DNA of 64,000 bases from Orbilia blumenaviensis. Lineage: Eukaryota > Ascomycota > Orbiliomycetes > Orbiliales > Orbiliaceae. The stretch spans positions 1,550,001 through 1,614,000 of the forward strand of contig JAVHNS010000009.1 in assembly GCA_036872755.1 (NCBI GenBank), written 5' to 3'. The translations under genes and the position numbers were made by a program. Under the pieces are notes generated by a model. It ran no database searches. It was given only the letters and a program-made list of their open reading frames with translations, and was not told where the DNA came from. Shown piece after piece: positions 23,934-42,588 of this stretch; position 1 is the stretch's first letter; each line of letters starts with the position of its first letter.

Positions 23934-25756
23934 ATTTGCGTTGAGAATTACAAGATAAAGGAAAGTTTTAAAGAGAGAGGTATGATATAATACAAGACTA
24001 TTAGCGAAAGTGAGAATACTGATATACACGGTAGCAATTGTGACGCTTTATATACCAGGTGAATATTTTAACTATCGCAAATTTTTGCCGCACGTAGCCC
24101 GCATGAAACCAATGCGCATATGCGTCGAGTTGACTGTCAAACAATGCTAATGGTTTTAGCTATAGTGTGTCGTGATTTATGAGCGATAGAAGCCACCGTC
24201 ACAGACTCACAGGCCAGGTTTCGTGCTAGTTAGCTGGTCTCTGACCTTCGTGATCTTGGTTACTTCCGTATCGGTAACTCAGGGCGGCGGCATGAAAGCC
24301 AGTGGTGGTTTCCACCAATGTTCTAGGTGTCTGAGGTCCACCCTGAGACCAAACACACATGCAGGGCGGGCTCTGCTAACCGAATCGGACTTAAACTTTG
24401 CCCCTGCGCATAAAAGCGACCCAGGACGCCGTGGCAGTCTAGCTAGAAAAGGTACCTGCTTGAACGGGACTAGCAATCCGAAGAAATGCGGCGCCGCTTC
24501 ATTGTGCTGAAAATTTGAAAAGCGCCGGGGTAGTTTAGACGGGGTTTTGAATTGAAGACGATGATTTGCGGGCTACGCCGTTGAAAGTTTACCGGGGCTA
24601 TGGCGAAGTTTATACGTACTCAGTATTCAACTATCGTGCTGAAACTGTCCCCAATGTAACATGCCTCTCTTCGGCTACTATGCCGTCTATAAAGTACCAA
24701 AAAAATTGTGCACAACCTTGCCAGTTAACAAAATTGCCAATGTCTCCCATACACGGATAAACGTGTTTGATGCAAGGAAATGTTTCTTCTGTATGCAATA
24801 ATTTGCAAGGCTAGACCAATTTGATGATATCAGTCCCAAGCTGGTCTCGTAAATCTAGAAATATTGTCCCAAGTCTACCTCGAGCCTCGACTCATGCTAT
24901 CAGCCTCGCATCCAGACTTGTGTTGTCCTCGATCAATCCGCCACAACACAAATCCTTTGTTGCATTTCTTGTGTTGCGCTCTTTGTATGAGTAAGCTGGA
25001 ATAGGGACAGCAGAATTCCTGAAGCGGGCAGCCCCCAAATCGGATAATGATCATCCTCTACTTCGATTTCGGTAAAATAAAATAGACGTCTAAACATTCC
25101 TAGACTAACTGGGGGCGCTGGTTATAGTCACGGTTTGGTTTTAACGAACTTCGTCAGTGAGTGGCCTCGGCCAGCTAGGGCTTCACAATACTACCTGGTC
25201 AGATCTGGATCCCTTTGCGATGAGGCGGCTGTGGACCGTTCATGCTTTAGGAATAGCGCTCAAGGACATCTTTCGGTATATGACATTAATTCTATTTAAT
25301 ATTATAAATGTTATGGTCAACTCATAACGTAGTGGAGTAACTACCTGGCTGTACGAACGTTTGAGCGGATTTTATTCAGTAAGAGATACAAAGATAAACG
25401 GTGTCAATATGCAGGTATGTTCAAGAGTTGCAAACGACAGGCCCGCTAATAGGTATACAATGCTTGACGTTGTGATTACGGAATTTACTCTACTTTACGT
25501 GATGCCGGAAATTTTTTATCTTGATGTCTATAGGGCGGGGTCGTGGTGGGAACTTAGATCGATTGTCTTGGCTAGGCACCTAACAATAATACTCTGGCTA
25601 TATTTAAGCACTGAAGTAGTTTGCCACTGGTAGGTTCTATAGTTCATTTCCCTCTCGCCCATCCTCGATATTTTCAATTCTGAAGTCCGTCAGAAATTTG
25701 GGCGCTTGATCCCGTAGAAAGCTAGAATGGCGTTATATCTCTGGTGAATTCCCACG
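23934..25756. other. Non-coding stretch, no gene recognised
   Basis: Upstream region of the tyrosinase gene and spacer towards the deaminase gene. It holds only short open frames without motifs, for example 24223-24510 and 25361-25633 on the plus strand. Confidence 0.45.
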
Positions 25757-27772
25757 TCATTGCTCCTGCTCCATTTGCCAGGCCCTTATGTCTTCAATGA
25801 CCTTTGCGGTTAAAATTTGTATCGAATCAACAGTTGACCGTCTATTCTTCATAGATATTCCGTCAGGAAGAGGCACAGGATAAACCTTGCCAGAGCCATC
25901 TCTGCAATCTATTTTCTTCTGTTGCAAAATGATGTACTCACAGATTGCGCAAGGGGGGCGAGATATGCCAATATAAGGACATGGTAGAGCTCGACACGAC
26001 CCGAAGCCTGCGAGAAGGATAACTTCGGCGTGGTAAACGGGTGTGATGACTGGATTGTTACTATTTAATGTTGACAGAAGGTGTTGACAGGCTTGCGGAT
26101 CCGGGATAACAGTGTGTAGGAGTCTCAGAAACTTCTGGACTCTTATCGAAATTTCGACGGGAGAGAGGTAGCCAAGGTAGAGGAACCTGTAAAGACTATA
26201 CTCGAGTTTTTCACCGCGGCAAGTGCTGGGGATGTTCCCGCCTAGCCGAATGACCTCTAGAGTGATCTGCTTTCTCACTGACCTTTCCTGCTTTACGACA
26301 CCATCGAGAAAATTTTCTGGGCTTTGGTACATTGCCGCTAGGAGGTAGCAACTCCAGAAAAAGCCATTTTGTGTCTTAAGCTTTTGACCTGCCTTCTCGG
26401 TACGGTGGCCTGATCTCGAGGGCTTTCGTTTTCCATCGGTATTTGCGTTCGCATGAACCCCAAGCTTTTGACTAAAGGTTGACAACATCAACTTTGGAGC
26501 AGAAAAGAACTTTCGTAAAACGTGTCGAGTTTTCGAACCGATGTTGCCCGCCTTTCCCTTCCGGCCGTCCCAGGTTTCATTCTTTCCTCGAGAGTTTGCG
26601 TCATCTAGAACATGTACACGCTCAAGAGTCGGAAATCCTGTCTGATGCTTCGTATACGCCTCACGCTTGGCAGCTAACTTGGTGATGAGCCCCACGTACT
26701 GACGGAATAGATTTGAGTTATGGGTGAATGCGACGATATACTCCAAGTATATGCAAAGTACACGCATTACGTCGTGGTAACGGGACTCATCACCTTCGCT
26801 CTTGATCTCATGACACCTTTTCAAACAAATTATGGCGTTTTCGAACGTGCACATAAAGAGTTCGTGCCAAATGTAGAGGTTTTCAGATGTGAGTTTCTCC
26901 AGTCCCAAATCGTTTCCAGACTCCAGTTTTTCTCGGACAAACTGGGACGTATACTCTGAGTTCAGATATATGTCACCTAGTTTGTGTGGGAGGCATTCAT
27001 CCTTTACGATATCCCATTCGTGTAGCTCGTCAACGAAGTACTCAACTTCCTCTTCAGACGGCTCTTCGAGATATTTAGGTGTGAAAAAGTGTTTTTCAAT
27101 GACGCGAAGGCCGTCTAAGATGACTCGGATACGATCAAAAAAGGCAGAAATCTTTGCCAGGCTATAATCCATTTGTGCGAAACGAAACTTCCGCAAGATT
27201 TCCTCTCGAGCATCCCCCTTCGGTGCTAGGAGATAGTCGCGCGAGAATTGGAGTATGGTATTGGCGTGCTTCTCCACGCGCTGACATTGCCATTCACGAA
27301 AGCTAAGGTTGTCAGATCACGGTTGATATATTCGGGATATTGTAATAGCCCCCCGTGAAAGCGAAGATATCATGACAACTCACTTTGGTGTTAGAATCTC
27401 CGGGTCAGCAGGAACTATGCAATCTGTGTCCTCCCCGGAGTTGATAGCCGCCACCAGCCAAATCTTCTCATTGGTTGTCCAAAAGACTGCGACTGCAACA
27501 GCCTCGTCGGGACGCGCGACAAGCAATCGAGCCAGCGTATCGAGCAAGCTAGCCGTTGCCACATCCCTCTGTCTGGCTAGATGGTATCTGTTCTCGTCCC
27601 GCATTCGATTCGCGTCGGCCGCGGCTGCAATCTGCCGTCGTATTTCGCCGCTGCCACGAGATAGTTGATTTAAGAAGGCACAGTTAGAGACGTAATGGCG
27701 TTGGTTTGGCTCGCCGTCGGTGTGGATGGTGATATCAGACATGGTGAAACTGGGGGCTGCCAGGGTGCTCAA
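25757..27772 (-). CDS. OTT_1508-like deaminase-fold protein
   Basis: Two exons (27772-27384 and 27302-25757, intron 81 nt) join in frame at NFREWQ to give 644 residues. Near the C-terminus is the zinc-binding pattern of the cytidine-deaminase fold: HAEVILLAGFGSC near residue 554 and RPPCAICEYI near residue 579, that is HAE then PCxxC. This spacing and the long helical region before it fit the fungal OTT_1508-like deaminase family. Members of that family are abundant in fungi and their substrates are largely unknown; suggested roles include nucleic-acid editing or conflict-type toxins, but none is shown here. No signal peptide, so probably intracellular. A basic Ser-rich linker lies mid-protein (around KRKPSRSGHR). 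All three zinc ligands and the catalytic Glu are present. Confidence 0.8.
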
Positions 27773-28679
27773 AAGAGATGATGATCGATGGCACAGATGA
27801 GGAGGAATTATCGTGATTGTATGGGCAATTAAATACTTTCCTCGCTGAAGGATAAAGCTAGGGTATTACTACAAGGGAAAAATGCTACAGCGAAGGCTAT
27901 CAGACGGCCCGCTGAATGTTGGGGCCCTGGCCGCTTCATATCGGGGAAATACTATCTCAGCTATGCTACACTAGCGCTAGCTATAGCTCTGTACCGTTCC
28001 AAAAGGCGGGAGGAAGATTATGTATTGCGATTGGGTTCAGAGATCGCCAGGTATACTTAACTATATTCAAGGCGACTACTTAAACATGCAGTTGTGTCAA
28101 AGACTAGGTATTTCTAAAAGTCCAAGGTTTGCCTTTATATGTGGCGGATTCATGTTGACCGTAGCCCAAAGATCGGTTTTTTTGAAATGAAGTTGGTTTT
28201 CAATTGAAATATAGGCAATGGTTAGCAGGGCCCGGGAGGCATGAGCATGGAATAAATTAGTCGTGCGGGGTACACAGATTCTTCTATCTACTAAAAAAGC
28301 TATCAGACTGGTCTCTTAAACCAGTCTCATATCAGACCGTTCATGTGTAAATAAATATTTAGACTTTACGGCTAAGAATCGCTTAATACAGTTGTATAGC
28401 CGCTGTAGTTTTCTTCACTGAATCATTTTACTTTATTATACGAAACCAATATGCCATTCACCGCTAGGTACCCATACTTTCCACTGATTAGACTGACCGG
28501 GCACAGAAAAATTGTGTTTGTAATGTTATATATATTATGTTAGTCTTTGCGGCTGTGGCGAATAGCATCCGGGAGCGGGGCCGTGGTGTAGCACGGTGGG
28601 TGGAACAGAGGCGAGTGGTTGGGCTATGAAACGATGCAAGAAGTGAGATGTTGGCAGAAGAGGACATGGACTTCATCAA
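27773..28679. other. Non-coding spacer with a small hairpin
   Basis: No gene seen. An 8-bp perfect inverted repeat (AGACTGGT / ACCAGTCT, loop of 7) lies at 28305-28327. Its meaning is unknown. Confidence 0.4.
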
Positions 28680-28729
28680 TTTCTCTCTCTACAACCGCTT
28701 CGATATAACGAAGCAACCCATGGAGAAAG
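28680..28729 (-). promoter_or_regulatory. Conserved 3'-flanking hairpin of U2 copy B
   Basis: On the minus strand, just past the U2 3' end, an inner perfect stem GCTTCG/CGAAGC closes a 6-nt loop at 28697-28714, inside an outer stem formed by TTTCTC-like and GAGAAA-like arms. The same two-tier layout follows the other two U2 genes with different arm sequences. In budding and fission yeasts a hairpin here is cut by RNase III (Rnt1 or Pac1) to form the U2 3' end; that role is inferred. Confidence 0.6.
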
Positions 28730-28736
28730 GAAACAA

Positions 28737-28995
28737 AGTTCGCATCACCTGGAGACAGTGCAAATACCAGGGACACAGTGAAACAGGCGCGTAAGCAAGC
28801 TTAGAGGCTCCTCGTAGCAAGAGACAAAAATAATTTTAATCTTAAATCCACCCAATGTTGGGCGTATTCCAGAGATTAAGCTGAAAAGAACAGATACTAC
28901 ACTTGATCTAAGCCTGTCCAGGAGGGGTGAGATGTCAGCGATAGTGGTTCCTGGGGGGGCTGTTGTGGGCGACTCACCAAAAGGCGAAGAGAGCT
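28737..28995 (-). ncRNA. U2 spliceosomal snRNA, copy B, with a 64-nt intron
   Basis: Read on the minus strand, CTCTTCGCCTTTTG is followed by an insertion and then GCTTAGATCAAGTGTAGTAT, which holds the branch-point recognition sequence GTAGTA, and then CTGTTCTTTTCAG. Removing 28977-28914 (donor GTGAGT, branch-like CTGAC, acceptor GACAG) restores the universal GCCTTTTGGCTTAGATC. Downstream are a stem IIb hairpin (CCCAACATTGGG), an Sm site ATTTTTG, and stem-loop IV with CCTGG, TATTTGCA and CCAGG, matching the U2B''/U2A' binding loop. Spliced length is about 195 nt, as expected (fission yeast U2 is about 186). Ends are estimated to within a few bases. U2 pairs with the intron branch site in the spliceosome. 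Confidence 0.92.
28914..28977 (-). other. Spliceosomal-type intron inside U2 copy B
   Basis: 64 nt with donor GTGAGTCG, branch-like GCTGACAT about 25 nt before the end, and acceptor CTGGACAG. It falls between the two G residues of the conserved GCCTTTTGGC. Position is identical to the intron of copy A, although the intron bodies are not alike. Confidence 0.88.
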
Positions 28996-29041
28996 AGGGA
29001 GGGAAGGAAGAAGGATGAGACAGGATTGGAGGAAAAGAGGC

Positions 29042-29077
29042 CCTTTTATAGTTGCAGAAACCCCAGGCGAGGGAAAC
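29042..29077 (-). promoter_or_regulatory. U2 copy B core promoter: TATA element and shared upstream box
   Basis: On the minus strand TATAAAAGG (29050-29042) lies about 47 nt before the U2 5' end, and AGTTTCCCTC (around 29077-29069) lies upstream of it. The TTTCCCTC box and a TATA element are found before all three U2 copies, so they are likely the snRNA promoter. A TGACGTCA palindrome occurs further up near 29100. Confidence 0.65.
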
Positions 29078-30208
29078 TACCTTTGGACACTTCGTAATGA
29101 CGTCAACACAGCCCTAAGTTGAAGCGCCGTCCGCGTCCTGGGTGTGCCCTTAACCTTCGGTCTATCGCACCGGACGCTAGTCTATCGATGCGTGGAGGAA
29201 CCGGGCCCCCAATGCCTCGGACTTAAAAGGCAGCTCTACAGGTCTACAGCCTGTAAACCTTTTTTTTTATGGAAGCTTTTTACAGAAGATCATTCAAATT
29301 GGCCCAGGGCTCGGAAATTTACGGGTGAATGGTGAAAGAGATCTGCAGCAGAACTCGAAGATAAGCTCCGTAGGATCACTTTCGATACGCTTGAAACTGC
29401 TGTCCCAGAACATAGATGCCACATAAAAATAGAGAAGGCGATGATGGAAGATAGAGTGGCTAATTATAACGTCGACGGAACAGTGCTTCACGAGGCGGCA
29501 GAAAGATAATACCAGCAACGAGGTTACCGTAGTAGTGGGCGGGGGAGATAACCTTTTATCGGCAAGGACAGGTGGTATGCCGTCTAGTATCGTAGGTCCC
29601 AGGACCAAACTGTACTACAATACTCAAGACAGGAACTATTGTGTGAATATTATCAATATAGAGCCTAAAGACTATAGGGCGCTATGCCCGACGGAAAGGA
29701 AGGTCTCTAAAGTACTTCCCTGCAGCAATGCGACCTCCCCCGGGTACAACTAAAAAAGCTGGGGATAGGAAGACGAGTCTTAGTATGAGACAGGGTATAT
29801 CCGCAGATAGTATACTATTAGGAACTTTCCTAGACTATTAAAGGCCATCCCAACAGCAGAATATTTGGATAACTTGTATTACTTAACCAATAAAAAACCG
29901 CATGACAATTCGTATTGTAGTTTCAGAAAACCGTCTCACGCCTCTGAAATACATCCTAACACAAGGTAGATCTAGACCATGATAAGGACTTAGCTGAGTG
30001 GATGTTCCACACAAGCCGAATTTCATTAGTATCCGACTATACCGTATCATCCCGAACGGCTATCAATCCCCTGCTTCTTCTTCCGAAGCCTGTTCTGAAT
30101 ACAACTGGATGGATATCGATACATCAATGAGTTTTAACAACAAATTCAAAGCGAAAAAGAAAGAGGGAAACAAATGGGAACTGGAATGTCCTAGACGAGG
30201 GCGTAGCT
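29078..30208. other. Non-coding spacer
   Basis: Upstream flank of U2 copy B and 3' flank of the kinase-like gene. Only short open frames, such as 29535-29753, and no motif or repeat recognised. Confidence 0.45.
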
Positions 30209-31009
30209 CTACACTGAAGCGCCCCCCTTTCTGAGAATTCTTCTTATCCATTCTCTTGTCGCATCATCTTTCACCTCCATCAAGTCCACCGTTTGACCCG
30301 TCTTATGATGTGATCGCATATCCTCTCCAGATTCAATTGTATCAAACGGCACTTTGCCAGTATACAACTCCCAGATAGATATGGCCAATGCGTACCAGTC
30401 ATCATCTTTCGTGGGTGGTACATAATGATAGCGTGTTTTGTTGTGATATCGATCAGTCGAGGTTGTGATTTCCGATTCGTGACACAAGAATTCCCAAACC
30501 TCGGTTTTTTCGTCTACCGGCCGCGCGCATTCAAAATCGCACAGGCGTATTTTTCCGTCTTTGCATATAACAAAATTGAGTGGTTTTACGTCTCCGTGAA
30601 CCATATTGTATCTCGTATGTAGCTCTTCCAGAACGGCGATCATTTCTTCTTTGATTCGGTGCTTTTCGGATTCATCCTTAATCGTCTTGATGTAGTCAAC
30701 GAGGGGCCGCGCAATCTCCATAACGAAACCCACTTCGCGAGGTTGGTTGTCGGGTGGGACGTCGAATCTCACGACATGCCCATGAACTTTAACTCCACAG
30801 TCCCCTGCGAGCTCCGCCATTTCTATTTCTCGAGGCCCAACGAAATATTTGATTGCAAACCCTTTGTACTCAAAAATAGGATCATTCCAAAATGCACGAG
30901 TACCTATGCCGGATAACCTTGGAAAATTGGGTTTCAGGACCCATCTACCAGACTTTAGCTCATAGAGGTCATCGTATAGAATGTCATTGGGCTTCATTGA
31001 TGTCGACAT
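30209..31009 (-). CDS. Small protein-kinase-like protein with DFE in place of DFG
   Basis: Single exon, 266 residues. Kinase landmarks are Lys54 in FAIKYF, the catalytic-loop HGDVKPLNF (residues 138-146, Asp140 and Asn145 present), and CDFE at 157-160 where most kinases have DFG. WYALAISIWELYTGKVPF gives the helix F region. HGDVKP-type loops are common in a group of small fungal kinase-like proteins. The glycine-rich loop is weak (RLSGIGTRAF), so the N-lobe may be reduced. The metal-binding Asp of DFE is kept, so activity is possible, but the protein could instead be a pseudokinase. No membrane segment or signal is seen, so it is probably cytosolic. Substrate unknown. Confidence 0.8.
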   Translation of the reverse strand: MSTSMKPNDILYDDLYELKSGRWVLKPNFPRLSGIGTRAFWNDPIFEYKGFAIKYFVGPREIEMAELAGDCGVKVHGHVVRFDVPPDNQPREVGFVMEIARPLVDYIKTIKDESEKHRIKEEMIAVLEELHTRYNMVHGDVKPLNFVICKDGKIRLCDFECARPVDEKTEVWEFLCHESEITTSTDRYHNKTRYHYVPPTKDDDWYALAISIWELYTGKVPFDTIESGEDMRSHHKTGQTVDLMEVKDDATREWIRRILRKGGASV

Positions 31010-32665
31010 CGTAGGCTTATTGCCAATTGGAGTTGGAGCAGAGACTGATGGAAGAGTGTAGTTTTGTGTTGCAGACTCGGAAGAGTGTTTCTAAAGAATT
31101 CAAGAGCAACATCATAACTAACCAGGGCGTACTTAGAGCTCCGCTATCGACTTAAGTATATATAATTACCTAGTTACAGGGTGTGATCTCCTCCCCGAAC
31201 GATAATATCCACACATGCACCTATTTGAGTACTTGAGAACTTAAACCCTTAGGGATATCGCGTAATTTAATTTATCATCTCACAGGTTGATCAGAAGATC
31301 TTTATCTCATAACTTAGTTGTCGAATAATGTGTGTTTATAGTGCCGAAAACTATGCTGAGTGCGAAGAACCCGCTGGCAAAAAACAACATTTTAAAAAAA
31401 CCGTCAGGTGCGCCTCTAAAGAGCGAAATCCTAGGGCATGTCAGTCCCGAACCGAGGGGTTCGGGGTCCACTCTGTTTCGAAAGAATCAAATATACATTG
31501 CCTTTTTTTCTGCGACGAATTGTCAAACTCGAGGACCAGGATCGAGACGGGAAGCAATTCCAGCGGGATCCTAGACCTCAGGTTATACGTAAAGCTGCCC
31601 GATCTCCCAACGCTACAATTGGCAATAGCTGACCTAGTTTTTCTCGCATAGATCCAAAAGCCGGTAACTTTGGACTCATTTTGCTTTTTCTGACGTTTGA
31701 AGTTCCGTGGTTTGAGCGAAGGGGGGTTATCAAGTTGGCGCTCAGCGCATATTAGAAGCCTAGATGGTTTTGGGGTATGTGGAGGAGGTGCAGACAGAAT
31801 ATGCGAGGGTGTAAGATCGAGTTTATCGGTATGTGGCGTAAGGAGGTGACATGCTTTTGAAGGGTTCTATACGTGGTTCTGGTGGGAGTGGCGACGTTGC
31901 AGTCTGATGTCGCGCCGTCAGTTTATTTGAAAATAAGAAGTCGGCCTAGCGAGTGAAGTTATTTGATATGATGGTATATTGGTTGTTGGATAACTAGATC
32001 CATTAATCCTTTTTTAAAATCCCGTAAAATATCTAGAGTATGATAAATTGGACGAATTTCGAATTGTGCGTGACAGAATTTCACAGATTTAGAACTTTGA
32101 AATAGATTCGACTTGAATGTTGCAGATGTCATTCCAGATGAGGGTTAAGAAATGGATAATCCTCGGACCTTCAGGAGCCCGATCTCTTGACTAGTATTCA
32201 AAGGGAAGGAAATCAACGCAGTGTATTCCATCTTTGAAATATCTTTGAATCGAACAAGCAAATTTAGCAACGGGCCTGAGATGAGGCTGATTTACCAATT
32301 GGAAATTTTTGATTTGCGAAGTTGATAGGAGAGGAGTCTGGAAGATGGGTGAAATGACTTGACTTGTGCCCCACCCCCTAGGGCCGTCTCACGTGATCAC
32401 CCGCTCTAAAATCTGTATAGCGGATTCAAAGACATTTCAAAGATGGAATGCATGCTTCAGCTTGTTCCACGATACATATTTCGGCACCTATTGAAGAAAT
32501 ATAATCATGACAGATTTACCGGGGTTCAGTTGGGCGTGCACGCACCTATTAAGCCGAGTTAGCCAAGAGCTAGCAAGAGTCACTTAACTTATAAGGAAGG
32601 GCTAAGATTTCAGATCTAGAGTCCCATACATCTCACAGCTGAGAAAGAAAGGGCTATGTTGGCTA
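31010..32665. other. Non-coding spacer
   Basis: Upstream region of the kinase-like gene and 3' flank of U2 copy C. Overlapping open frames at 31328-31651 carry no motif. I see nothing else. Confidence 0.45.
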
Positions 32666-32708
32666 TTTTCTATGAAAGCTTCGATAACACGAAGACAACC
32701 ATGGAAAA
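32666..32708 (-). promoter_or_regulatory. Conserved 3'-flanking hairpin of U2 copy C
   Basis: Minus-strand inner stem CTTCG/CGAAG around a 6-nt loop (32679-32694) lies within an outer stem TTTTC-ATG/CAT-GAAAA. Layout equals that after copies A and B while the bases differ, which suggests selection for structure. Probable 3'-end processing signal, by analogy with yeast U2. Confidence 0.6.
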
Positions 32709-32711
32709 GAG

Positions 32712-32900
32712 ATTTCGCATCATCCAGAGACAGTGCAATACCGGAGACACGGTGGAGAGAACATTGGCAAGCCAAGAGGATCTCATCCGAACTATAAAAA
32801 TAATATTAATAACCGATATCGTCGCGTGGACGATATTTCAGATATTAAACTGAAAAGAACAGATACTACACTTGATCTAAGCCAATTGGCGAAGAGAGCT
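32712..32900 (-). ncRNA. U2 spliceosomal snRNA, copy C, without intron and with altered stem I loop
   Basis: Minus strand reads CTCTTCGCCAATTGGCTTAG then ATCAAGTGTAGTATCTG, continuous with no insertion. Exon-2-equivalent sequence is nearly identical to copy A down to the 3' end; I see changes only in the stem IIb loop region (GTG to GCG, AAA to GGT) and at the last bases. The Sm site is ATTTTTA and the stem-loop IV motif GGTATTGCACTG is kept. In the 5' loop the usual TTTT is AATT. Total about 189 nt, matching spliced copy A. Either a working intronless gene or a recent copy derived from an A-like gene that lost the intron. Confidence 0.88.
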
Positions 32901-32931
32901 GATGAAGAAAGAGGGTGCTGGGGAGGCCCTC

Positions 32932-32965
32932 ATTATATACTCGTGCCAAGCAATACGAGGGAAAG
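32932..32965 (-). promoter_or_regulatory. U2 copy C core promoter: TATA element and shared upstream box
   Basis: Minus strand has TATATAATG about 35 nt before the U2 5' end and ACTTTCCCTC upstream, matching the box before copies A and B. The TATA element is less canonical and closer to the start than in the other two. Confidence 0.55.
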
Positions 32966-34067
32966 TTTGCGCTGTGTTGTTAGTCTTGCCGAAAGTGGAC
33001 ACAAATCTGAATCATCTGGTTACGCGATGTCATCTCCATGACCATCCACCCCCCATCAAACGTACAGGCCAGTTGGTGGGACAATACCAGCTAAACAAGA
33101 TGGTGCATTGCATATGCTATATCGCTGGCGTATGTACCTAGATAGGTAACTACAAAACTCTTTGGCACAGCCATTACCTAGGCTCGTGCCGGGGCTGGCG
33201 AATCCAAACAACACTAACACATATTCTGTGAATTATATGTTGTTTGTTGTATTTTTGCTTACGTACGAAGAATGCAAAATATATAATTGAGCAGAGAATG
33301 AAGGGTTACTCGGAGATCCGGAGGGGCATTTTGGCTCGATCCTTGCGTCGGGTAAATAGGATTATGAGTGGCCAATATATAAAAGTCAAAAGAAAGAATA
33401 ACCCCCACATACTGTTTTCCTAGATCGCAAGCGCGATGTAGTTGTCGCCAAGTGGTTCGGTGGCGCTTTCACCTCGTATATCTGCCGTGTCTACGACCCA
33501 AACTCTGTGATAAAGTTAAATATCTGCATTGCATAAATCCAATGCGGCGCTAGCATGCACCTATTTCCGCACAGCCCAACGCGTTAACGATTGCGTATAG
33601 AGGAACAGGAATCGGAAGCGACACAATTGGCTGATGATACATTTCAAAAAATTTCCCGTCTCCACAATCGTAGAACATCGATGCATCAGATCCCGTGCGC
33701 CGTCGTTTTCCCTCTTGATCGTGCAAAGGAGCTTTTCTGCAGTGTGCCGAAACGGTTTAGTGTTTTGCTTGACCAACTTTGGCTCTTTTACAATCTGCTT
33801 GGTTTCGAGATCCAGCGTATCGTATCAGACTGGTTTAAAATTTAGTCTAGGCTGATGTATGGACCTTCTATGGTTTTTGTGCATAAATACCGCTCTGAAC
33901 GTCCTTGGAAATTTCCTCTTTTCCAAATCATCACGCTCATGACCATATCTCGGGCAGATTCTGGGTACAATCGCACAATCGCGCAAAATATCCTCTGCTA
34001 GTCCCATTACCATTCAATATTCACCAAATCGGCGGTCACCTTGACCTGCATTCCCGCGGCATTGATC
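32966..34067. other. Non-coding spacer
   Basis: Divergent upstream region between U2 copy C and the secreted protein gene. Short open frames near 33591-33855 have no recognised motif. Confidence 0.45.
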
Positions 34068-34901
34068 ATGAAATTCACTCCCCTCTACTATTTTGTTCTA
34101 GTTTCCCGCGCACTCGCCGCCACTCTTCCACCACCCTCAGCTAGTCTAACGCAGACAGAGAATCTACCCACGGATACAGCTGAACCTATCCCATTCAATT
34201 ACGAAATCAAACCGGGAGATCTCAACAGATATCTTCATCCTGATGCTACATATACCGACGAACATATAGATTGCGCCGACGGACAACCAATTCTCTCCGG
34301 AGAAACGGTTATCGGCTGCTTTTTCATAAATGAAGAAGAAGACGTCGACAGAGCAATCGAGGCCATCACGATTGCTAAAAATTTAACGAATGAAAATCCC
34401 GAGGCTTTACCTCCTACCCCACAGTTGTATGGGCCTGAGAACCATTCCCAGTTACAAAAAAGGGGCCCATGGGCTTTGTACCCGCCTTATTGTTTTGGGG
34501 CCGGTGTTTACAGTAATCTTGAGCCTGACTTCCGCGAAACCTCTGATGCGGTTTGTGCCTCAATGCACGCATTCGGAGGTCGGAATATGGCGTCTGCTTC
34601 GTGGACAATTCGGAGACGCGGTGGTAATTTAGGTCTTATAATGTATGCGACTGGGACCTCGTGGCCAATTCAGCATGACTATTTCTTTCGCAATATTGGC
34701 AAAGACAATTGGGTATACACCAATTTTAGGACGGATCAAGCGTGTTTTATCTTTATTAACCACATCGTTCAAGGCGCATGTAGGGGGGGTAACCCCGACA
34801 GCCAAGGGGGTTGGGCTGATGGTTATGATTACTACTATGGAGCTAGTCGTACCTACAGGATCGGGGTTGATCCTAATCGGGATGGCCAGCCGAATAGTTA
34901 A
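34068..34901 (+). CDS. Secreted pre-pro protein of unknown function
   Basis: Single exon of 277 residues from the Met that starts a signal peptide (MKFTPLYYFVLVSRALAAT); a Met nine codons upstream would spoil it. Residues about 20-130 form an acidic pro-region with two cysteines, ending in QLQKR (131-132 being KR), a Kex2-type cleavage site. The mature part of about 145 residues starts GPWALYPPYC and has four cysteines, suggesting two disulfides. Its end (CFIFINHIVQGACRGGNPDSQGGW, shown here in two parts: CFIFINHIVQGAC and RGGNPDSQGGW) matches a block I recall from uncharacterised fungal secreted proteins. No enzyme motif was recognised. Role outside the cell only inferred. Confidence 0.82.
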   Translation: MKFTPLYYFVLVSRALAATLPPPSASLTQTENLPTDTAEPIPFNYEIKPGDLNRYLHPDATYTDEHIDCADGQPILSGETVIGCFFINEEEDVDRAIEAITIAKNLTNENPEALPPTPQLYGPENHSQLQKRGPWALYPPYCFGAGVYSNLEPDFRETSDAVCASMHAFGGRNMASASWTIRRRGGNLGLIMYATGTSWPIQHDYFFRNIGKDNWVYTNFRTDQACFIFINHIVQGACRGGNPDSQGGWADGYDYYYGASRTYRIGVDPNRDGQPNS

Positions 34902-35354
34902 ACTCTTATCTGACCTGTTTGTAGATACCTATTCTGAACATTCGTTCGTCAGGACGGCTTCATTCATGCATTCTTAATACTACGCAAGTAAGCCTGTATC
35001 TACATCTAAAACCAGGACCAGCCAGCCCTCCAATACTAGCCGTATATTCTCAGGAATACAACACCCCATTGCGTGTTACATATGCTTGACTGATAAGTCG
35101 GGTTCTAAGTAACCCTCGGTGCCCGTACCGCCTACATTAAAAAATGTTGGTGGAGGTTTAAAAGAAATGTGTTTTTCCTTAACGTTTTCAGAAAAATTCT
35201 CTTAAAAATCGTTCATAGGTATTAAAAGACTACTAATATATTAAATTGAGTTTGAATGTGAGCTAATTTTTGTTTATTGATTTAAAAATAAAGTTTAAAT
35301 TTGTTTAAAGCTCTCTTATGTTATGCAGTAAACGTATAAACACTATAATTTTAA
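34902..35354. other. AT-rich spacer
   Basis: Very AT-rich 3' flank of the secreted protein gene leading into the paired repeat element. No gene seen. Confidence 0.5.
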
Positions 35355-35865
35355 TATATAGTACCGTACGGGGTTTTGGCTGGTTTCTCAAGACGGTTTA
35401 TAGAAAAAAGGGAACTTAAAACAGTATCAATAACGACTTGAAAGACAACAAGACGGCTTGCTTTCTTTTTAAAATGTTTTATTATTCGGAAGCAGTCCCA
35501 GAAAAGTACCCAAAACCCCTATGGTATATACCTATATAGTATATTTTTTGTTCTTAGCTTAGTATCAGCCTGTACGGCGAAGCACAGCGGAGTTGTCCCA
35601 GTTTTAAAATTCTTCACAATCTTACAAGTAGCCTAGTCTCGTAGTTTACGACGCTTCGTTAGCAAGGTGCCTGGCCATAATTACCGTAGTTAGGGGTTCG
35701 GGTATTTTTCTAGGACTGCTTCCGGATATTAAAACATTTTAAAAAGGAAGAAAGCCGCCTAGTCCTCTTTCGAACGGTTATTTATGTTGTTTCAATTTCC
35801 TTTTTTTCTATAAATCGTCTTGAGAAACCAGCCGAAACCCCATACGGTAGGTTACCGATTTTAAA
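35355..35865. mobile_element. Pair of miniature elements in inverted orientation
   Basis: A unit of about 170 bp (35360-35530) opens GTACCGTACGGGGTTTTGG and closes CCAAAACCCCTATGGTATA, so its ends are imperfect inverted repeats. A second unit (about 35695-35860) is the same sequence on the other strand: its reverse complement reads CCGTATGGGGTTTCGGCTGG, then TTTATAGAAAAAAAGG and CGGAAGCAGTCCTAGAAAA. Together they form a large imperfect palindrome with about 165 bp between. No coding capacity. It is a MITE-like non-autonomous element, either two insertions or one composite. Target-site duplications could not be fixed. Confidence 0.75.
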
Positions 35866-36511
35866 GTATAATTCTCCATCTATCGGTTACGGGGGATGCA
35901 CCAAACTCATTGTGGCATATACGCCCGGATCCTCTGATCAACGGCTTGATCATCTCGATGTTGCCAAGAAGATGGAAGTGTCTGTTGGGGAAGATATGAG
36001 TGAGTATGAGAGAGTTACGGAGAGAATTATGAACACATTAGAAAATATGGAATAAATAGAATTCCATCATGTAAAGTAGCTTCCTCGAGGAGAGAGGACT
36101 TTGAAAGAATCATCGAACTTCCAAAACTTCTTCCGCATAGTAAATGTTAAATTTGTAGTTTTCCAGCCTCGGTTACTGTTAGAGATCATCCGCTTATCCT
36201 CTGATCTACATCTGTATATATTATATATTATCAGTTGAAAGCCAACTTAAGGTGTAATACCTAAATACCCAAGGTTTACAAATGCTGGAAGTACCTGAAA
36301 ACCTCCAACATCCTCAAAAATCACTCCTCCCACTTTCTTCTACTATATCGTCTCCAGATCCGAGACAATCGGGTACTCTCCAGCTCTTCTTCCCTGCTTT
36401 TGAATGTGTTCTCACTTCCTAGGATCCTGTTCCTGTTCCTGTTCCTCGCGTTTTTGCTTCACAACTGCGTTCCTCTGCTTTTTCTTGCCTGCCTCATAAG
36501 TAAGTATATAC

Positions 36512-36570
36512 TGATTTAATATTCGGAAGCAGTCTCAGAAAAGTACCCAAACCCCTACGGGATATACTGA
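36512..36570 (+). mobile_element. Truncated copy of the miniature element
   Basis: Only the 3' third of the unit is present: ATTCGGAAGCAGTCTCAG, AAAAGTACCCAAACCCC and TACGGGATATAC. It lies about 130 bp upstream of the protease start codon. A GTAAGTATATAC donor-like site at 36500 and a CGACAG acceptor-like site near 36591 would place the fragment inside a 5' leader intron; this is not proven. Confidence 0.65.
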
Positions 36571-36698
36571 ACATCTTGCTCCTGTCGACAGTGTTCTCAA
36601 TCCCGTCTCAATCTCACAACCTCAAAAAGAAGGCGTTCGCCAATGCTAGCCTCGCCATTCTAGAGTCAGGAATCCAATCTCCTACTTGCTCTAGCGAA

Positions 36699-38413
36699 AT
36701 GCCCGTCTCCCTGGCTCGAGACACCTCCAAGGTGGCCCGTCTCATCAGCAATTATCCCAACGCATACCACGACTTCTACCCCAGCCGCGCTCCCTGTGTC
36801 TTCAAATCTGGCCCTGGATGGCTAGTCAACGAGGGGTCTTATAGAATCTTGCGTGAGGCTCGCCAGATTTCCAGCACCAAATATCCACTTGGGTCTACTT
36901 GGCTGTCTATCGGCCAAAGCATCTACCAACGCCTCGACGAAATGGGCATCAAGTGGACATCCATCAACCCCCTCGCTTACGCCAACCAGGGGGAAGCTAA
37001 GCCCTTCTGCTCCTTCCTACTATATATCACTGTGACCCCCGATTCCCTCCTCTACAGCGACGCTGTTGTGGCTGCCGACGCTATCCAGCAGATTCTCACC
37101 GATGCCGGTCTCTCCACCGCCGAGGTTGCCTTTGTTGAGTCAGTACTCACTTATTCCGTCGCTGGTCCCAAACTTCTTCCGTTCGATCCCTTGCGCCATC
37201 CAGTCCCCGAGCTGCGAAAGCCCTTTACCCCCGCACTCGGACTCTCTATCGCGCCTCTCGGCTGCCCACAGTTCGAAGGCACAGCCTCGCTCTACTACCG
37301 CCTTAGTAAAGAAGACAAGCGTATCGCCATCTTGACTTGCGCCCATGTCGCGCGTCCCACCCCTGTGTATGGTAACACAGGTATGACATATAAAACAAAA
37401 AGTCAACGTCGTGAGGGGGTCGTCGCCCTCGGTAACGCTAGTTATAATAATGCTATCGAGGCAATGACAAAAAAGATCACAACTCTCACCACCTCCATTG
37501 AGATCTGGAACAATGTACTTGCTAGGTTGGGAGAGTTCATTAATGGAGAGGACATCACGATCACAGAAAATCGCGATGAAACCTTGCAGTTAATAGCGAA
37601 TACAACTCGGAAAATCAAGCATATCAAGATGCTCCAGGAAGAGGTTACCAAGGACCGTACCCCGCTTGAACAGCGTGTCATTGGCTTCGTGCTCCACTCA
37701 GAGATCATCAAAGTCTCCGCCGAGCCTCATGGCTTCACCCAAGATTGGGCGCTCGTCCAATTGTATGACGACAAGATTGACTGGTCTACATTCCAAGGAA
37801 ATAAAGTATATGTCGGTATGTGTATTTTGCATATCTTGGTTCCCATCTTTTCTTCTTTCTCTCGTCTCCTTGTCATCACTTTTAGCTAACTATCGCGTTT
37901 ACTTCCTTTGCAGGCGATAAACTCTCCGGAGCTGAGTTTGGAGAAGTTATGTTTCCTCAGCTTGTAGATCGAGCAGGCTACAGCTACCCTCCGGATGGTC
38001 TTCTTCAGGCCTATGGCGTTGTTGGGGATGCCGAAATCCGGAACCCCCAGCACCTCGACGTCGATGGCGACAAGTGCCTGCTGGTCGTTAAGAATGGTTT
38101 GGCCACTGGGACTACCATCGGTCGTGCTAACGGCCTTGAGTCCTTCACACGCACCTACAGCAATTGCGGCACCATCCAAACATCTATAGAGATCGCTGTC
38201 TTGCCCTACGACAGGGCACATGGAAGCTTCTCCGCTTGTGGTGACTCCGGCTCTATCGTCCTCGCTAGGGACGGCCGTATCGTTGGACTTATCACTGGTG
38301 GCATGGGCATAACTAATGAAACTGATATTACATATCTCACACCATACTGGTGGCTTGATGAGCAGATCAAGTTAAAATTCCCAGGCTGTTTTCTTTACGA
38401 AGCAGTCGAGTAG
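36699..38413 (+). CDS. Trypsin-fold serine protease-like protein, intracellular
   Basis: Two exons (36699-37815 and 37914-38413, intron 98 nt with GCTAAC branch) join to 538 residues. Start is the first ATG in frame; the frame is open upstream but from a TTG. The catalytic triad of a chymotrypsin-like fold is visible: His216 in LTCAHVARP, Asp349 in TQDWALVQL, Ser484 in CGDSGSIVL. Between His and Asp lie about 130 residues, much longer than in a digestive trypsin, including a helical, coiled-coil-like insert rich in Glu, Lys and Thr. The N-terminal 150 residues form a separate domain of unknown kind. There is no signal peptide, which fits a cytosolic protease and not a secreted one. Relatives occur in fungi without known substrates. 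Confidence 0.83.
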
Positions 38414-39535
38414 GGGTGTCGCGGACCCCGAGGTTACACCAAGGATACTGTATACATAGAGAGAAACTATGTAAATTTGGGCTCCTACAGAATTCAAGTT
38501 CAATGCCAAAGTTCTTACTATAATCCTAAAGCCAATAGACAATATAATCTTGACTTACAACTACATCTTTCAACAGTGTAAAATAGCTCTTACAAAATCT
38601 ACCCACAAACCCAATACCCTCATATACAATCTCAATAAAAACACCATCATCGAAGAACATTATGTTCAAGACTCTACACATATCATACTAATAAATTGTA
38701 TTAGATTTGGCATCCTTATTATTGGTACCAACATAGGTTTGCCAGATATAGCTGTTCCAAAGGGTAAAACGCGAGGAGAATCACTATACATAAAATGCCG
38801 TAGTTCCGAACGTACGTAGTATTTTGCGGAATGGCTGTTGAAGATCGCTCGTGCAGGTCAGTTCATCTACCTAGTGATGATAATGATATCAGCTTTGCGT
38901 TAGCTAATACGAAGAGGCGGATTAAATATAGTATCCATGAACGGCCGTTGACTCTAGAACCGACAAGCAGGGTGAGTATCAGCAGAATATAATGAATGTT
39001 GAAGGCTGAGAAGGCGCGAGACCTTCAGGGCGGCGTCCATAGCTAGTTTTTTATGCTGGCTAATGTTCATGAATGGCTGAGTTGGTAAGGGGATGGACGC
39101 CTGTTCCACATGAGAGAGAGGGGGGGAGGGAGGAAAGGGGGAGGGGGAGGGGGGAGGGGGGAGGGAGAAAACGGAAGATTTTGTGAGAATGATTGGGGCA
39201 GAGAATGATGGCCTGTTAACTTGGCAAGGCTCCTGGCCCTGTTCAGACTTGATATGTATGTGTATGGATTGATGGCTGACTGTTCTGGATGGATTCTTAG
39301 TGGGGTTCCCGGGTCGCGTCAAAATAATGCCAACACCTACTGTTATCGGTAGTCCAGACAAAGGTGGGAGTCATGCAATGCTTTGTGTGGATGAAGATAT
39401 GAATATCCCGACTTGATGATCGTATATAAATACCATCAAGATGATCTATCCACTGAGTATAGATATGTAAACGCTAAGTATTTTTAAGATGCAATGTTCC
39501 CTTTGGTTCTCATGGAGAGTCATGATAGATAGATG
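38414..39535. other. Spacer with a G-rich tract
   Basis: 3' flank of the protease gene running into the U2 copy A 3' region. Apart from the purine tract at 39111-39170 no gene or repeat was recognised. Confidence 0.45.
39111..39170 (+). repeat. G-rich purine tract, possible G-quadruplex
   Basis: About 60 bp of almost only G and A on the plus strand, with at least six runs of four or more G separated by one to five bases. Such spacing satisfies the usual G-quadruplex pattern several times over. It lies about 400 bp past the 3' end of U2 copy A. Confidence 0.75.
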
Positions 39536-39584
39536 ACCTTTTCAACGAAAGCTTCAATAGCATAAAGCTAGCCATTGAAAAGGT
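39536..39584 (-). promoter_or_regulatory. Conserved 3'-flanking hairpin of U2 copy A
   Basis: A perfect 10-bp outer stem (ACCTTTTCAA/TTGAAAAGGT) encloses an inner 7-bp stem AGCTTTA/TGAAGCT with one G-U pair and a short loop. It begins directly after the U2 3' end. Same layout as after copies B and C. Probable RNase III-type or other 3'-end processing signal. Confidence 0.68.
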
Positions 39585-39845
39585 TCGCATCATCCAGAGA
39601 CAGTGCAATACCGGAGACACGGTGGAGAGAACATTGGCAAGCCAAGAGGATCTCATCCGAACTATAAAAATAATATTAATATTTGATATCGTCACGTGGA
39701 CGATATTTCAGATATTAAACTGAAAAGAACAGATACTACACTTGATCTAAGCCTGTACGATTCAAAGACAGTGTTAGCATTCGATCCCATTGAGAACGAT
39801 TTGTGTTGTGATCAGATTGTGACTTACCAAAAGGCGAAGAGAGCT
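39584..39845 (-). ncRNA. U2 spliceosomal snRNA, copy A, with a 75-nt intron
   Basis: Minus strand reads CTCTTCGCCTTTTG, an insertion, then GCTTAGATCAAGTGTAGTAT and CTGTTCTTTTCAG. Removing 39827-39753 gives GCCTTTTGGCTTAGATC, the conserved U2 5' end. The intron has the fungal consensus throughout: GTAAGT, GCTAAC, TACAG. Downstream are stem IIb (ATATCGTC/GACGATAT), an Sm-type site ATTTTTA, and stem-loop IV with CCGG, TATTGCACTG and CTGG, the U2B'' binding loop. Spliced length about 187 nt. U2 is essential for recognising intron branch points, so this copy, if expressed, must itself be spliced to gain an intact stem-loop I. Confidence 0.93.
39753..39827 (-). other. Spliceosomal-type intron inside U2 copy A
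   Basis: 75 nt, donor GTAAGTCACA, perfect branch site GCTAACA about 21 nt before the acceptor TCGTACAG. It interrupts stem-loop I between the two G residues of GCCTTTTGGC, about 16 nt before the GTAGTA branch-recognition sequence. Confidence 0.9.
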
Positions 39846-39892
39846 GGAGAAGAAAGAAGGAAAAGAAATGAAAAGATTGTGGGGAAGTTGGT

Positions 39893-39927
39893 CCTTTTAT
39901 ACCTGGGCTCTCGGCAATGAGGGAAAC
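39893..39927 (-). promoter_or_regulatory. U2 copy A core promoter: TATA element and shared upstream box
   Basis: Minus strand has GTATAAAAGG about 50 nt before the U2 5' end and AAGTTTCCCTC about 20 nt further up, as in copy B. TGTCC lies just upstream of the box in copies A and B. A TGACGTCA palindrome near 40056 recalls the one upstream of copy B. Confidence 0.65.
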
Positions 39928-41799
39928 TTTACGGGGGACATTGCACATCATCCCAACGTAGTATAGGATGTTCGCTCGGCTCTTTTGGTGAAGCTGGAGG
40001 GTTATCACAACACACACGTCAAAGGAGTCACAGGAAGCACATGAGTATTCTAACGTGACGTCACCCGGAACCGCAGACAACTACGCTAACTGAATTAAAG
40101 GACTCAAATATTAATAGCATTGACCTATTTCTCTGATCCTACACTGGCCTAGGCACCGACGAGACGAGTCTAGGCACTTGATAGTGATTAAGTGGACGGA
40201 CGTGGTATCGTTGTATCGTGTTGTCTAGTTCCAATGAGACTACCTAGATAGACGGGGTTTATATGACTAACACACCTAACCCCATATCAACTCTACTACG
40301 AGAATATATCAACCCACCCCCATTTCCAGCATGGTATGTATACGGGTACGTATAGCCGTTGTACATACAGGCTCTATTCACAGTGAAGTCTTTATCTGAC
40401 CATCGCATGGGCTTTGGCACGTTTTTCAGAGCCGTCCCTGCTCCTCAAAGGCACCTTAATTCAAACCGCCCCGTCTATAACTAGTACAGGCTTTCAAGAG
40501 ATGAACTGTTTATTTTACAAGCAGTTCCCCTCCGTTAATGCGGTACGCGTCTTATGTGGGTGTATGTTGGCCCTTTGGATCCAACCTATGGATAGAAGGT
40601 ATATGGAGAACATTTCCGGTTGATTCGAATACAGACAAATTAGTGCGCCATGCAATCTTAGCTAGGGCCTTTGGCGAGGTTTTGGTCAAGCTTTCCCATC
40701 CCTGCCGATCTGTCAATCTATATCAACAGTCATTATACCTTCCAAGCTTCAAGAAGCAACACAGTTGTCCTGAATTGCCTTTAGTCAAAATGCAACGTTA
40801 GAATCGCGTTGCAAGCCAACTCCACTGCCGTGACACCAACCAGTAGCACTGCGCAGCATCCATGCTCTTTAACAGTGTCATAGCTCTGAGCGGTTGGGAA
40901 TATCCGAATCCGGATTCATGGAATCACAAAGCCATTTCACTGGTACATGCTCACGGCCAAGATATCTCTAGCTGGCAGCGCTCAGCCAATCAATAGATCG
41001 ATCAATATAGGAAGTCCAGGCCTGCCGATATGGGGTCTCACCACATAACAATTTACAGAAAAATTTCCTCCGTGATTGGACATAATTATACGGTTGAGTG
41101 GGTGGCCCTACTGGAGTGTTGAATGCGACTGCTTCTAATGTGCTCGTATCCCCACGATCGTACAGTCGTACGCCAGACTCGCGAGCTGCAGACCACGCCC
41201 ACAACAAGACCTGAAAAGACATGCGGCTATCGCCAAGATTACTGGTCGCGTTACAGGATACCATCTTCACAATTCAGATCATTCCTTACTCTAGATTTTT
41301 AAAGTTAAATGATACTAGTCTCGCGAAAAATGTCTGAAGTCACTCCTTGACATTGTGTGCCCTCTGGTGAATTCGAAGACTACCATGCGTACGAATAGAA
41401 TCGCAGTCTACCTATGTTTCGATTGTTATCATGAATTCGGGGTTCCGACGCGCTCGGCGTGCAAGAGCCGTCACTTCAATCTTTTCGCGCATCCGTCGCA
41501 AGCAAATGAAATCCTGTTGTAGTACACGTGCGTGGGTGGCGAAGTATTTCATCCTGCCTACGCGTTGAAACATAACCACGCGCGACCGAGCGAACATCGT
41601 TTGTGTAGCTTGCTTACAGGAATAAACTGCTTCAAATCTAATGTAATAATTTTAAATATTCATCGCTTACGGCGCTTTGTTAGGTGAAAGTTAATGGAAA
41701 TATATCTATTCATGATAAAAATTAAAATATTCTTAAGTAAAGCCTGATCTTATCGTACATGTAACGCGTAAAAACCGATACCCATACCCAAACAAATAT
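39928..41799. other. Non-coding stretch with weak coding-like frames
   Basis: Open frames at 40538-40801 (plus) and 41270-40968 (minus) are the least random but show no motif I can name. No convincing gene. Confidence 0.4.
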
Positions 41800-42588
41800 T
41801 TAACCTTCAATCCCGCCCATTGGCTCCTTCCCGTGTGCAAGTGCCCTCTTTCTCCGAGAAAGAAAGACGAGTACTGCCGCTGCGATCAACGCAATGGCAC
41901 CGACAGATACGCCAACCGCAATTCCGATCGTTGTGCCCTTGCTTAGCCCCCCACCTCCATTTCCGCCTTGGGATGCTGCTTCTGTCGGACTAGGAGAAGC
42001 CTTTTGCTCAGCGGTAGCACCCCCAGCTGAGACGCTCGAAGATCCAGTTGTGCCCCCCTGTGTCGGCTCGCTAGCTGGACCAGAGGTGGTTCCAGGCGCA
42101 CTGGTCTCGGAGGGCGTTGCGTCTGGGGATTCTGGTGTTGTGCTAGCAGCGATAGTGACGGGTACGGGTACCGGTTTTGTGGGATTCCCGTTTGCAGTAG
42201 CGCAATAGTCGTTATATAATGAAAGAGCAGATACCAAATCGTTTGGATCGGCGTCTTCTCCGCTGCCGCAGTAGTAGGGAATACAGGTGTTAAAGTAGGA
42301 GGTGGCACTTGAAGCGTATTTCGTATTGCAGTAGCAGCCATTAATTGGCGCGTATCCACATCCCAACTCTCCACCGACGTCGTCCCAATCGTGGTAGTAC
42401 GGTCCTCGGGGGTAGGGGCCGTTGTAATAGAGGCAGTGTTTAACGCAGCTGCGCTGGAGGGTATACTCTACGCCTTTAGAGATAGAAACGCCAGAAGTCT
42501 GTGGAAGTGTCGGCGGGACAGTAACCGAGGGCGCATCCTGGCCGGCGGCCAAACGGGCAATAAGAAGGAGAACGATTCCTCGATACAT
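41800..42588 (-). CDS. Cysteine-rich, stalked single-pass surface protein
   Basis: Single exon, 262 residues. N-terminal signal peptide (MYRGIVLLLIARLAAGQ). The outer domain, about residues 45-130, has nine or so cysteines within Tyr/Gly-rich sequence: SCVKHC, LGCGY, NGCYCN, NTCIPYYC, DYCAT. A long Ser/Thr/Pro/Gly stalk follows, likely O-glycosylated, then a membrane segment (TTIGIAVGVSVGAIALIAAA) and the basic stop SRRKR with a short tail. Build resembles the CFEM and WSC-type stalked surface proteins, as does the unrelated gene at 15.1 kb, but the cysteine pattern fits neither well. It may sense or shield the cell wall; function unknown. Confidence 0.82.
   Translation of the reverse strand: MYRGIVLLLIARLAAGQDAPSVTVPPTLPQTSGVSISKGVEYTLQRSCVKHCLYYNGPYPRGPYYHDWDDVGGELGCGYAPINGCYCNTKYASSATSYFNTCIPYYCGSGEDADPNDLVSALSLYNDYCATANGNPTKPVPVPVTIAASTTPESPDATPSETSAPGTTSGPASEPTQGGTTGSSSVSAGGATAEQKASPSPTEAASQGGNGGGGLSKGTTIGIAVGVSVGAIALIAAAVLVFLSRRKRALAHGKEPMGGIEG

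Follow-up and report, generated by a model that had tools for sequence, protein, structure and literature searches.

Spliceosomal-type introns in two of at least five U2 snRNA loci of the nematode-trapping fungus Orbilia blumenaviensis

A spliceosomal RNA gene whose own transcript has to be spliced creates a self-dependence that is expected to be selected against or made safe. Such a gene was proposed in the nematode-trapping fungus Orbilia blumenaviensis, an ascomycete of the class Orbiliomycetes (subphylum Pezizomycotina), where an initial annotation described a canonical spliceosomal intron within stem-loop I of a U2 snRNA gene. This locus raises the question of whether the insert is a genuine intron, whether the gene that carries it is a working one and how U2 would then be supplied. 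The analysis covered the window, i.e., the whole stretch of 64,000 nt in which the gene lies, as well as the genome (42.46 Mb, 23 contigs); positions refer to the window unless they are preceded by a contig handle (C1, C9, etc.).

The gene, here named copy C, was delimited by its sequence and by a match to the Rfam U2 family at positions 39585-39845 of the minus strand. Re-reading of that strand bore out both the sequence and the coordinates originally given for the insert. Exon 1 (39828..39845, AGCTCTCTTCGCCTTTTG; the RNA 5' end is inferred) is followed by an mRNA-type intron of 75 nt (39753..39827; GTAAGT...GCTAAC...TACAG), recognized from the sequence and a motif scan, in which GCTAAC ends 20 nt before the intron end. 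The insert comes after GCCTTTTG, and its removal restores stem-loop I. Exon 2 (39585..39752), which was defined by the Rfam match, the fold and the alignment and has an approximate 3' end, opens with GCTTAGATCAAGTGTAGTATCTG from 39752. In a scan of the window, the Rfam U2 model matched copy C at 39579-39775 (133.9 bits) with the insert present, and in this alignment letters of the intron stand in for exon 1.

A second interrupted U2 gene, absent from the initial annotation, was identified by sequence and Rfam at 28740-28995, also on the minus strand (copy D), with an Rfam match at 28734-28938 (103.7 bits) that was again obtained with the intron present. Its exon 1 (28978..28995) and exon 2 (28740..28913, from the Rfam match and the alignment; 3' end approximate) flank an mRNA-type intron of 64 nt (28914..28977; GTGAGT...GCTGAC...GACAG), likewise supported by sequence and motif scan. 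The introns of C and D interrupt U2 at the identical nucleotide, starting 18 nt from the inferred RNA 5' end in stem-loop I, and the bases that adjoin them are the same U2 letters. At the level of sequence, stem-loop I (GCC/GGC stem, TTTT loop) is restored in both copies when the intron is left out and then matches that of two intron-free copies, A and B, in which GCCAATTGGC stands in place of the GCCTTTTG^GC of C and D. An extra GCCTTTTG at window position 28000 was also inspected and does not belong to a U2 gene.

Both introns contain a GTRWGT 5' splice site, a CTRAY branch motif and a YAG 3' splice site. When the 255,722 segments of 64 or 75 nt on both strands of the window were scanned for this pattern (a GTRWGT start, CTRAY 6-35 nt before the end and a final YAG), only two fitted, namely the introns of C and D, which rules out chance or artefact as the origin of the intron-like inserts. 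Their lengths of 75 and 64 nt compare with 71 nt in the one mRNA intron of this genome used as a reference, that of the tyrosinase gene in the window (GTAAGT...TCTGAT...TAG). A self-splicing intron of group I or II was also rejected: the Rfam scan of the window gave three matches at gathering score, all of them U2, and no group I or II family appeared at E values up to 5 within 25000-42000, where only U2 and two weak unrelated matches were recorded. Altogether, the DNA evidence for introns in two U2 genes is good.

The interiors of the two introns were no more alike than shuffled sequences, their similarity score being reached by 315 of 2000 shuffles; since they are unrelated, neither intron is a recent copy of the other. 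A recent segmental duplication of the U2 loci was similarly rejected, as similarity was confined to the gene and its near flanks when 1.5 kb on each side were compared.

Regarding U2 supply, a genome-wide search with the U2 model (Rfam RF00004), in which the best 46 of 931 candidates were scored, found at least five U2 places, all on the minus strand of contig C9 and within about 83 kb. Since genome searches of this kind score only the best candidates, the snRNA gene counts given here are lower bounds. All five copies exceed the gathering score of 46 bits. Two of the four intact genes (C and D) contain the intron, which is absent from A (C9:1515433-1515626, minus strand, 149.3 bits) and from B (32715..32900, minus strand; Rfam match 32709-32902, 146.2 bits), and the branch-site recognition segment GTAGTA, an Sm-like T-rich site and the consensus stems are present in all four. 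That the case concerns an ascomycete with several U2 copies, as the initial annotation had it, was thus confirmed, and the suggested search for intron-free U2 elsewhere in the genome returned two intact copies. The fifth copy, E (C9:1507033-1507219, minus strand, 68.1 bits), is degenerate and has neither GTAGTA nor a normal 5' part; over 148 nt it differs from A at 21 sites, of which 13 are C to T and 8 are G to A changes, as repeat-induced point mutation would be expected to produce. Close to copy E is a tandem repeat whose unit measures about 126 nt. Outside this genome, the conserved U2 stretch was found at no place in viral contigs and as three stretches in two genome contigs, both from records labelled as bacterial; the two that were read are intron-free U2 of other eukaryotes.

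The existence of A and B bears directly on the self-dependence. It had been proposed that the RNA would depend on already mature U2 to be made; this stands for C and D but need not hold for U2 as a whole, since A and B are intron-free. The self-dependence of C and D would therefore be real but harmless, and would set no trap.

On the other hand, two intact intron-free copies could supply all U2, and, with a fifth copy already degenerate, C and D might themselves be silent or dying genes whose inserts are the remnants of former introns. We consider this very unlikely in view of what both copies have retained, i.e., all U2 core motifs, the promoter and the splice signals. Further, C and B do not differ anywhere in alignment columns 92-196, the fold of D is preserved with two-sided changes in 10 pairs, and the dead copy E, with differences from A that are exclusively C to T or G to A, looks different. 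Instead, C and D are very probably expressed Pol II U2 genes with an ordinary intron that is removed by the spliceosome, while A and B could supply U2 without that step.

The promoters were assigned by pattern and spacing and consist of a TTTCCCTC element plus TATAAAA, at 39895..39926 for copy C and 29044..29076 for copy D (minus strand in both cases). The distance from TTTCCCT to TATA is 26-27 nt in C and D and 25-27 nt in the intron-free U1 and U2 genes; overall, TTTCCCT is located 25-27 nt upstream of TATA in four of four U1 genes (in one as CTTCCCT), in all of U2 A-D and in U4a, and the distance is 36 in U4b. The U3 snoRNA gene has a promoter of the same kind as the snRNA genes (TTTCCCTC-TATAAAA), with an element at C17:553570 that is missed by a stricter spacing pattern. 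Genome-wide, the promoter pattern gave 53 matches vs. 40 for a reversed control, so that alone it is weak evidence; eight of the 53 matches are known genes (U1a, U1c, U2 A, C and D, U4a, U4b and U3).

Concerning the fold, C and D differ in 51 alignment columns (gaps counted) when the introns are left out. Among the 45 consensus pairs, 10 have changed on both sides yet remain paired, 3 have changed on one side and remain paired and 24 are the same; of the others, D has lost 3 and gained 3, and 2 are paired in neither copy. Two-sided changes in 10 of 45 pairs are as expected of working U2 RNAs. As the comparison of A with D likewise gives 10 pairs changed on both sides, some of these changes may have arisen on the branch to A, B and C, so that not all of them must have occurred in an intron-bearing gene; the unrelated intron interiors nevertheless make it likely, if unproved, that much of the constraint was in force with the introns already in place. 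In a five-row alignment that takes in one unrelated U2 (L021), 19 pairs with two-sided changes were counted against a shuffled mean of 7.1, a value that none of 500 shuffles reached, and slid structures gave 1 to 5.

Downstream of the genes, a hairpin was found at 39537..39583 for copy C (fold and conservation) and at 28683..28730 for copy D (fold; ends approximate), both on the minus strand. It is kept in all five copies, including beside the degenerate E, and is thus no proof of activity by itself. Across the five copies, 5 of its 17 pairs show two-sided changes, which 3 of 500 shuffles reach and for which slid versions give 0 to 2, in a test that favours C because the structure was taken from C's own fold. 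The hairpin is most stable in C and D, with energies of -23.8 (C), -19.9 (D), -17.6 (E), -12.2 (B) and -10.9 (A) kcal/mol. In yeasts, snRNA 3' processing takes place at a downstream hairpin, and by analogy the one described here is probably the 3'-processing site. Promoter, fold and downstream hairpin all point to C and D as working U2 genes. The initial reading, in which stem-loop I of a genuine U2 gene is interrupted by a canonical spliceosomal intron, is well supported: another copy has its intron at the identical position, and the promoter, the 3' hairpin and the compensatory changes agree with it.

The relationship between intron-free and intron-bearing genes was apparent from the 13 exon columns that differ between A and C. 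Copy B equals A at the first six (columns 15-91) and C at the last seven (108-165), its 5' half thus being like A and its 3' half like C; were the sites independent, a 6/7 split as clean as this would arise with a probability of about 0.001. This split argues that the two types of gene exchanged the 3' half of the exon, by a type of gene conversion through which the intron could be passed on or lost. Mixed paralogues and exon exchange hence bear on the gain and loss of snRNA introns.

If C and D are expressed as proposed, Pol II would transcribe both genes and each transcript would carry one mRNA-type intron. U1 could pair with the 5' splice site; the four U1 matches found in the genome start with ATACTTACCT, which is complementary to GGTAAGT. 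Existing U2, from any copy, could pair with the GCTRAC branch site. The spliceosome would then excise the intron and join the exons as GCCUUUUG-GCUUAG, U2 would fold normally, Sm assembly would follow, and the 3' end would probably be released at the hairpin just downstream. The intron itself would most likely have been carried along by the C/D lineage for a long time as a roughly neutral sequence, in a genome in which U4, U6 and U3 genes are also intron-bearing.

The start of these transcripts deserves separate consideration. The distance from TATA to the RNA 5' end is 56 nt in U2 C, 55 nt in U2 D and 60 nt in U3, compared to 38-41 nt in eight other snRNA genes, all RNA ends being inferred. 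In U2 C, U2 D and U3 an intron begins 12-18 nt after the RNA start, and the other eight have no intron near the 5' end; this perfect split, noticed post hoc, has a probability of about 0.02 when C and D are counted once. The extra stretch in the three genes is a pyrimidine tract: as counted by eye, a purine stands 32-34 nt after TATA, and nothing but pyrimidines follows until the RNA end is reached. Given the longer spacing, the start sites of C and D may differ. One reading of both features, the spacing split and the purine with its tract, is that pre-U2 of C and D starts 21-24 nt upstream and has a 5' leader, which would give an exon 1 of about 40 nt, make splicing easier and be trimmed later. 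This is unlikely, in our estimation: Pol II scanning to the next purine explains the spacing equally well, trimming would leave an RNA without a cap, and the pattern was recognized after the fact in few genes with inferred RNA ends.

Introns are not confined to U2 among the small RNA genes of this fungus. U4a (C1:1960103) is intron-free by sequence, while U4b (C1:1980312-1980499, minus strand), 20 kb apart from it, contains a 56-nt mRNA-type intron (GCCAATTG^GTAAGT...GCTAAT...TGTAG^AAAACTATAC). The better of two U6 places (C14:918080-918190, minus strand) has a 69-nt intron that follows AATTTGAAA, directly precedes CGATACAGAGA and contains a B-box-like GTTCGAACC; this place reads CTGCACTAAGG vs. 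CUGCGCAAGG in the Rfam consensus, that is, with one extra base. The other U6-like place (C7:1420791-1420893, plus strand) has a tRNA-like 5' part and looks like a tRNA-U6 chimaera or a pseudogene. One place was found for the U3 snoRNA by Rfam and sequence (C17:553725, plus strand, in the region C17:553400-554200), with 94.2 bits, just below the family cut-off of 95; 12 nt into the inferred RNA, it is interrupted by an intron of 68 nt. None of the four U1 genes contains an intron; all of them score below the cut-off (54-61 vs. 69.5 bits) and have an intact U1 5' end. The copies of snRNA families were loosely clustered, 7 to 83 kb across, and not in tandem (U2 on C9, U1 as two pairs on C4 and C15, and U4 on C1).

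With regard to U5, the Rfam genome search returned a single weak place (41.8 bits), which resembles a tRNA in its 3' part and at which no snRNA promoter element was seen. Of three patterns for U5 loop I, the first gave one match with one mismatch (four in the control), which on reading was not U5-like, the second gave two matches (one in the control), which were judged on the matched letters alone by a pattern blind to an Sm site with six T, and the third gave none. Neither was U5 seen among 42 of the 53 promoter-pattern matches (38 with the downstream DNA read and four snRNA genes read earlier). The U5 gene may be interrupted or divergent.

Since U4 likewise has one intron-bearing and one intron-free gene, and the self-dependence of C and D follows from their sequence, the intron might be regulatory. 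Falling U2 levels or splicing capacity would then lead to less, or more, mature U2 from C and D, and pre-U2 splicing would tune the spliceosome. However, conservation between C and D does not extend to the interiors of their introns, and the intron-free copies bypass the splicing step. Moreover, U3 paralogues in fungi are also mixed, and the authors of that work, in the part of it consulted, think it unlikely that the intron affects what the RNA does (PMC5832005). We therefore hold a regulatory intron to be very improbable. The feedback on U2 level suggested in the initial annotation is conceivable but unsupported, because intron-free U2 genes exist, and A and B weaken it.

A related and only slightly less doubtful idea is a two-tier snRNA set, in which U2 A, U2 B and U4a would be intron-free starters and U2 C, U2 D and U4b would have an output rising only with splicing capacity; promoters shifted upstream, which lie 15-20 nt further away in U2 C, U2 D and U3, would perhaps lengthen exon 1. 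If this were true, the spliceosome would feed forward on its own RNA supply. In any case, one genome with both kinds of U2 gene and both kinds of U4 gene offers a natural comparison. The letters differ between copies, so that reads can be assigned to U2 genes, and RNA reads could show the share of U2 that passes through splicing and its response to splicing capacity.

As for known systems, among the papers listed by a full-text literature search that covers few subscription papers, none has U2 or U4 introns in an ascomycete in its title or at the start of its abstract; a 2008 survey of spliceosomal RNA genes might report them. Rhodotorula hasegawae is a basidiomycete yeast, whereas O. blumenaviensis is an ascomycete in which two intron-bearing U2 genes accompany two intact intron-free ones. 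The mixed-paralogue setting and the U4 intron are the parts that may be new; the U2 intron itself is already known in the basidiomycete yeast. U6 is a Pol III gene, and fungal U6 introns differ in this respect from the present case, where U2 is a Pol II gene with intron-free sisters in O. blumenaviensis.

The precedent named in the initial annotation, an mRNA-type intron in the U2 gene of R. hasegawae, matches the title of Takahashi et al. (1993) as cited in an excerpt of PMC2586383; as in copies C and D, a spliceosomal-type intron is thus located inside a U2 gene. According to the portion of PMC5832005 consulted (citing Canzler et al. 2016), U6 introns are common in fungi, and the U6 snRNA gene of O. 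blumenaviensis is likewise interrupted by a short GT-AG intron. The same portion describes mRNA-type introns near the 5' end of TATA-driven fungal U3 genes, with intron-bearing and intron-free copies mixed in eight genomes, which resembles Orbilia U2 in the 5'-proximal mRNA-type intron and the mixed copies. U3 stands outside the spliceosome, so no self-dependence arises there, unlike for U2. The genome papers of A. oligospora and Duddingtonia (Arthrobotrys) flagrans, in the excerpts at hand, mention snRNA annotation only briefly (PMC3164635, PMC6453484).

Finally, the protein-coding surroundings were examined. The tyrosinase open reading frame (ORF) at 21742-23250 matches TWF730_011195 of Orbilia blumenaviensis with 100% identity along its entire length, and its next relatives are from Arthrobotrys flagrans, A. 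megalospora and O. javanica (79-80%). In a protein search, an ORF of 812 amino acids in the window matched only itself. ORFs at 10209-13825 of the window match NPHP3_N/NACHT and ankyrin, and in this they resemble fungal NLR-type proteins.
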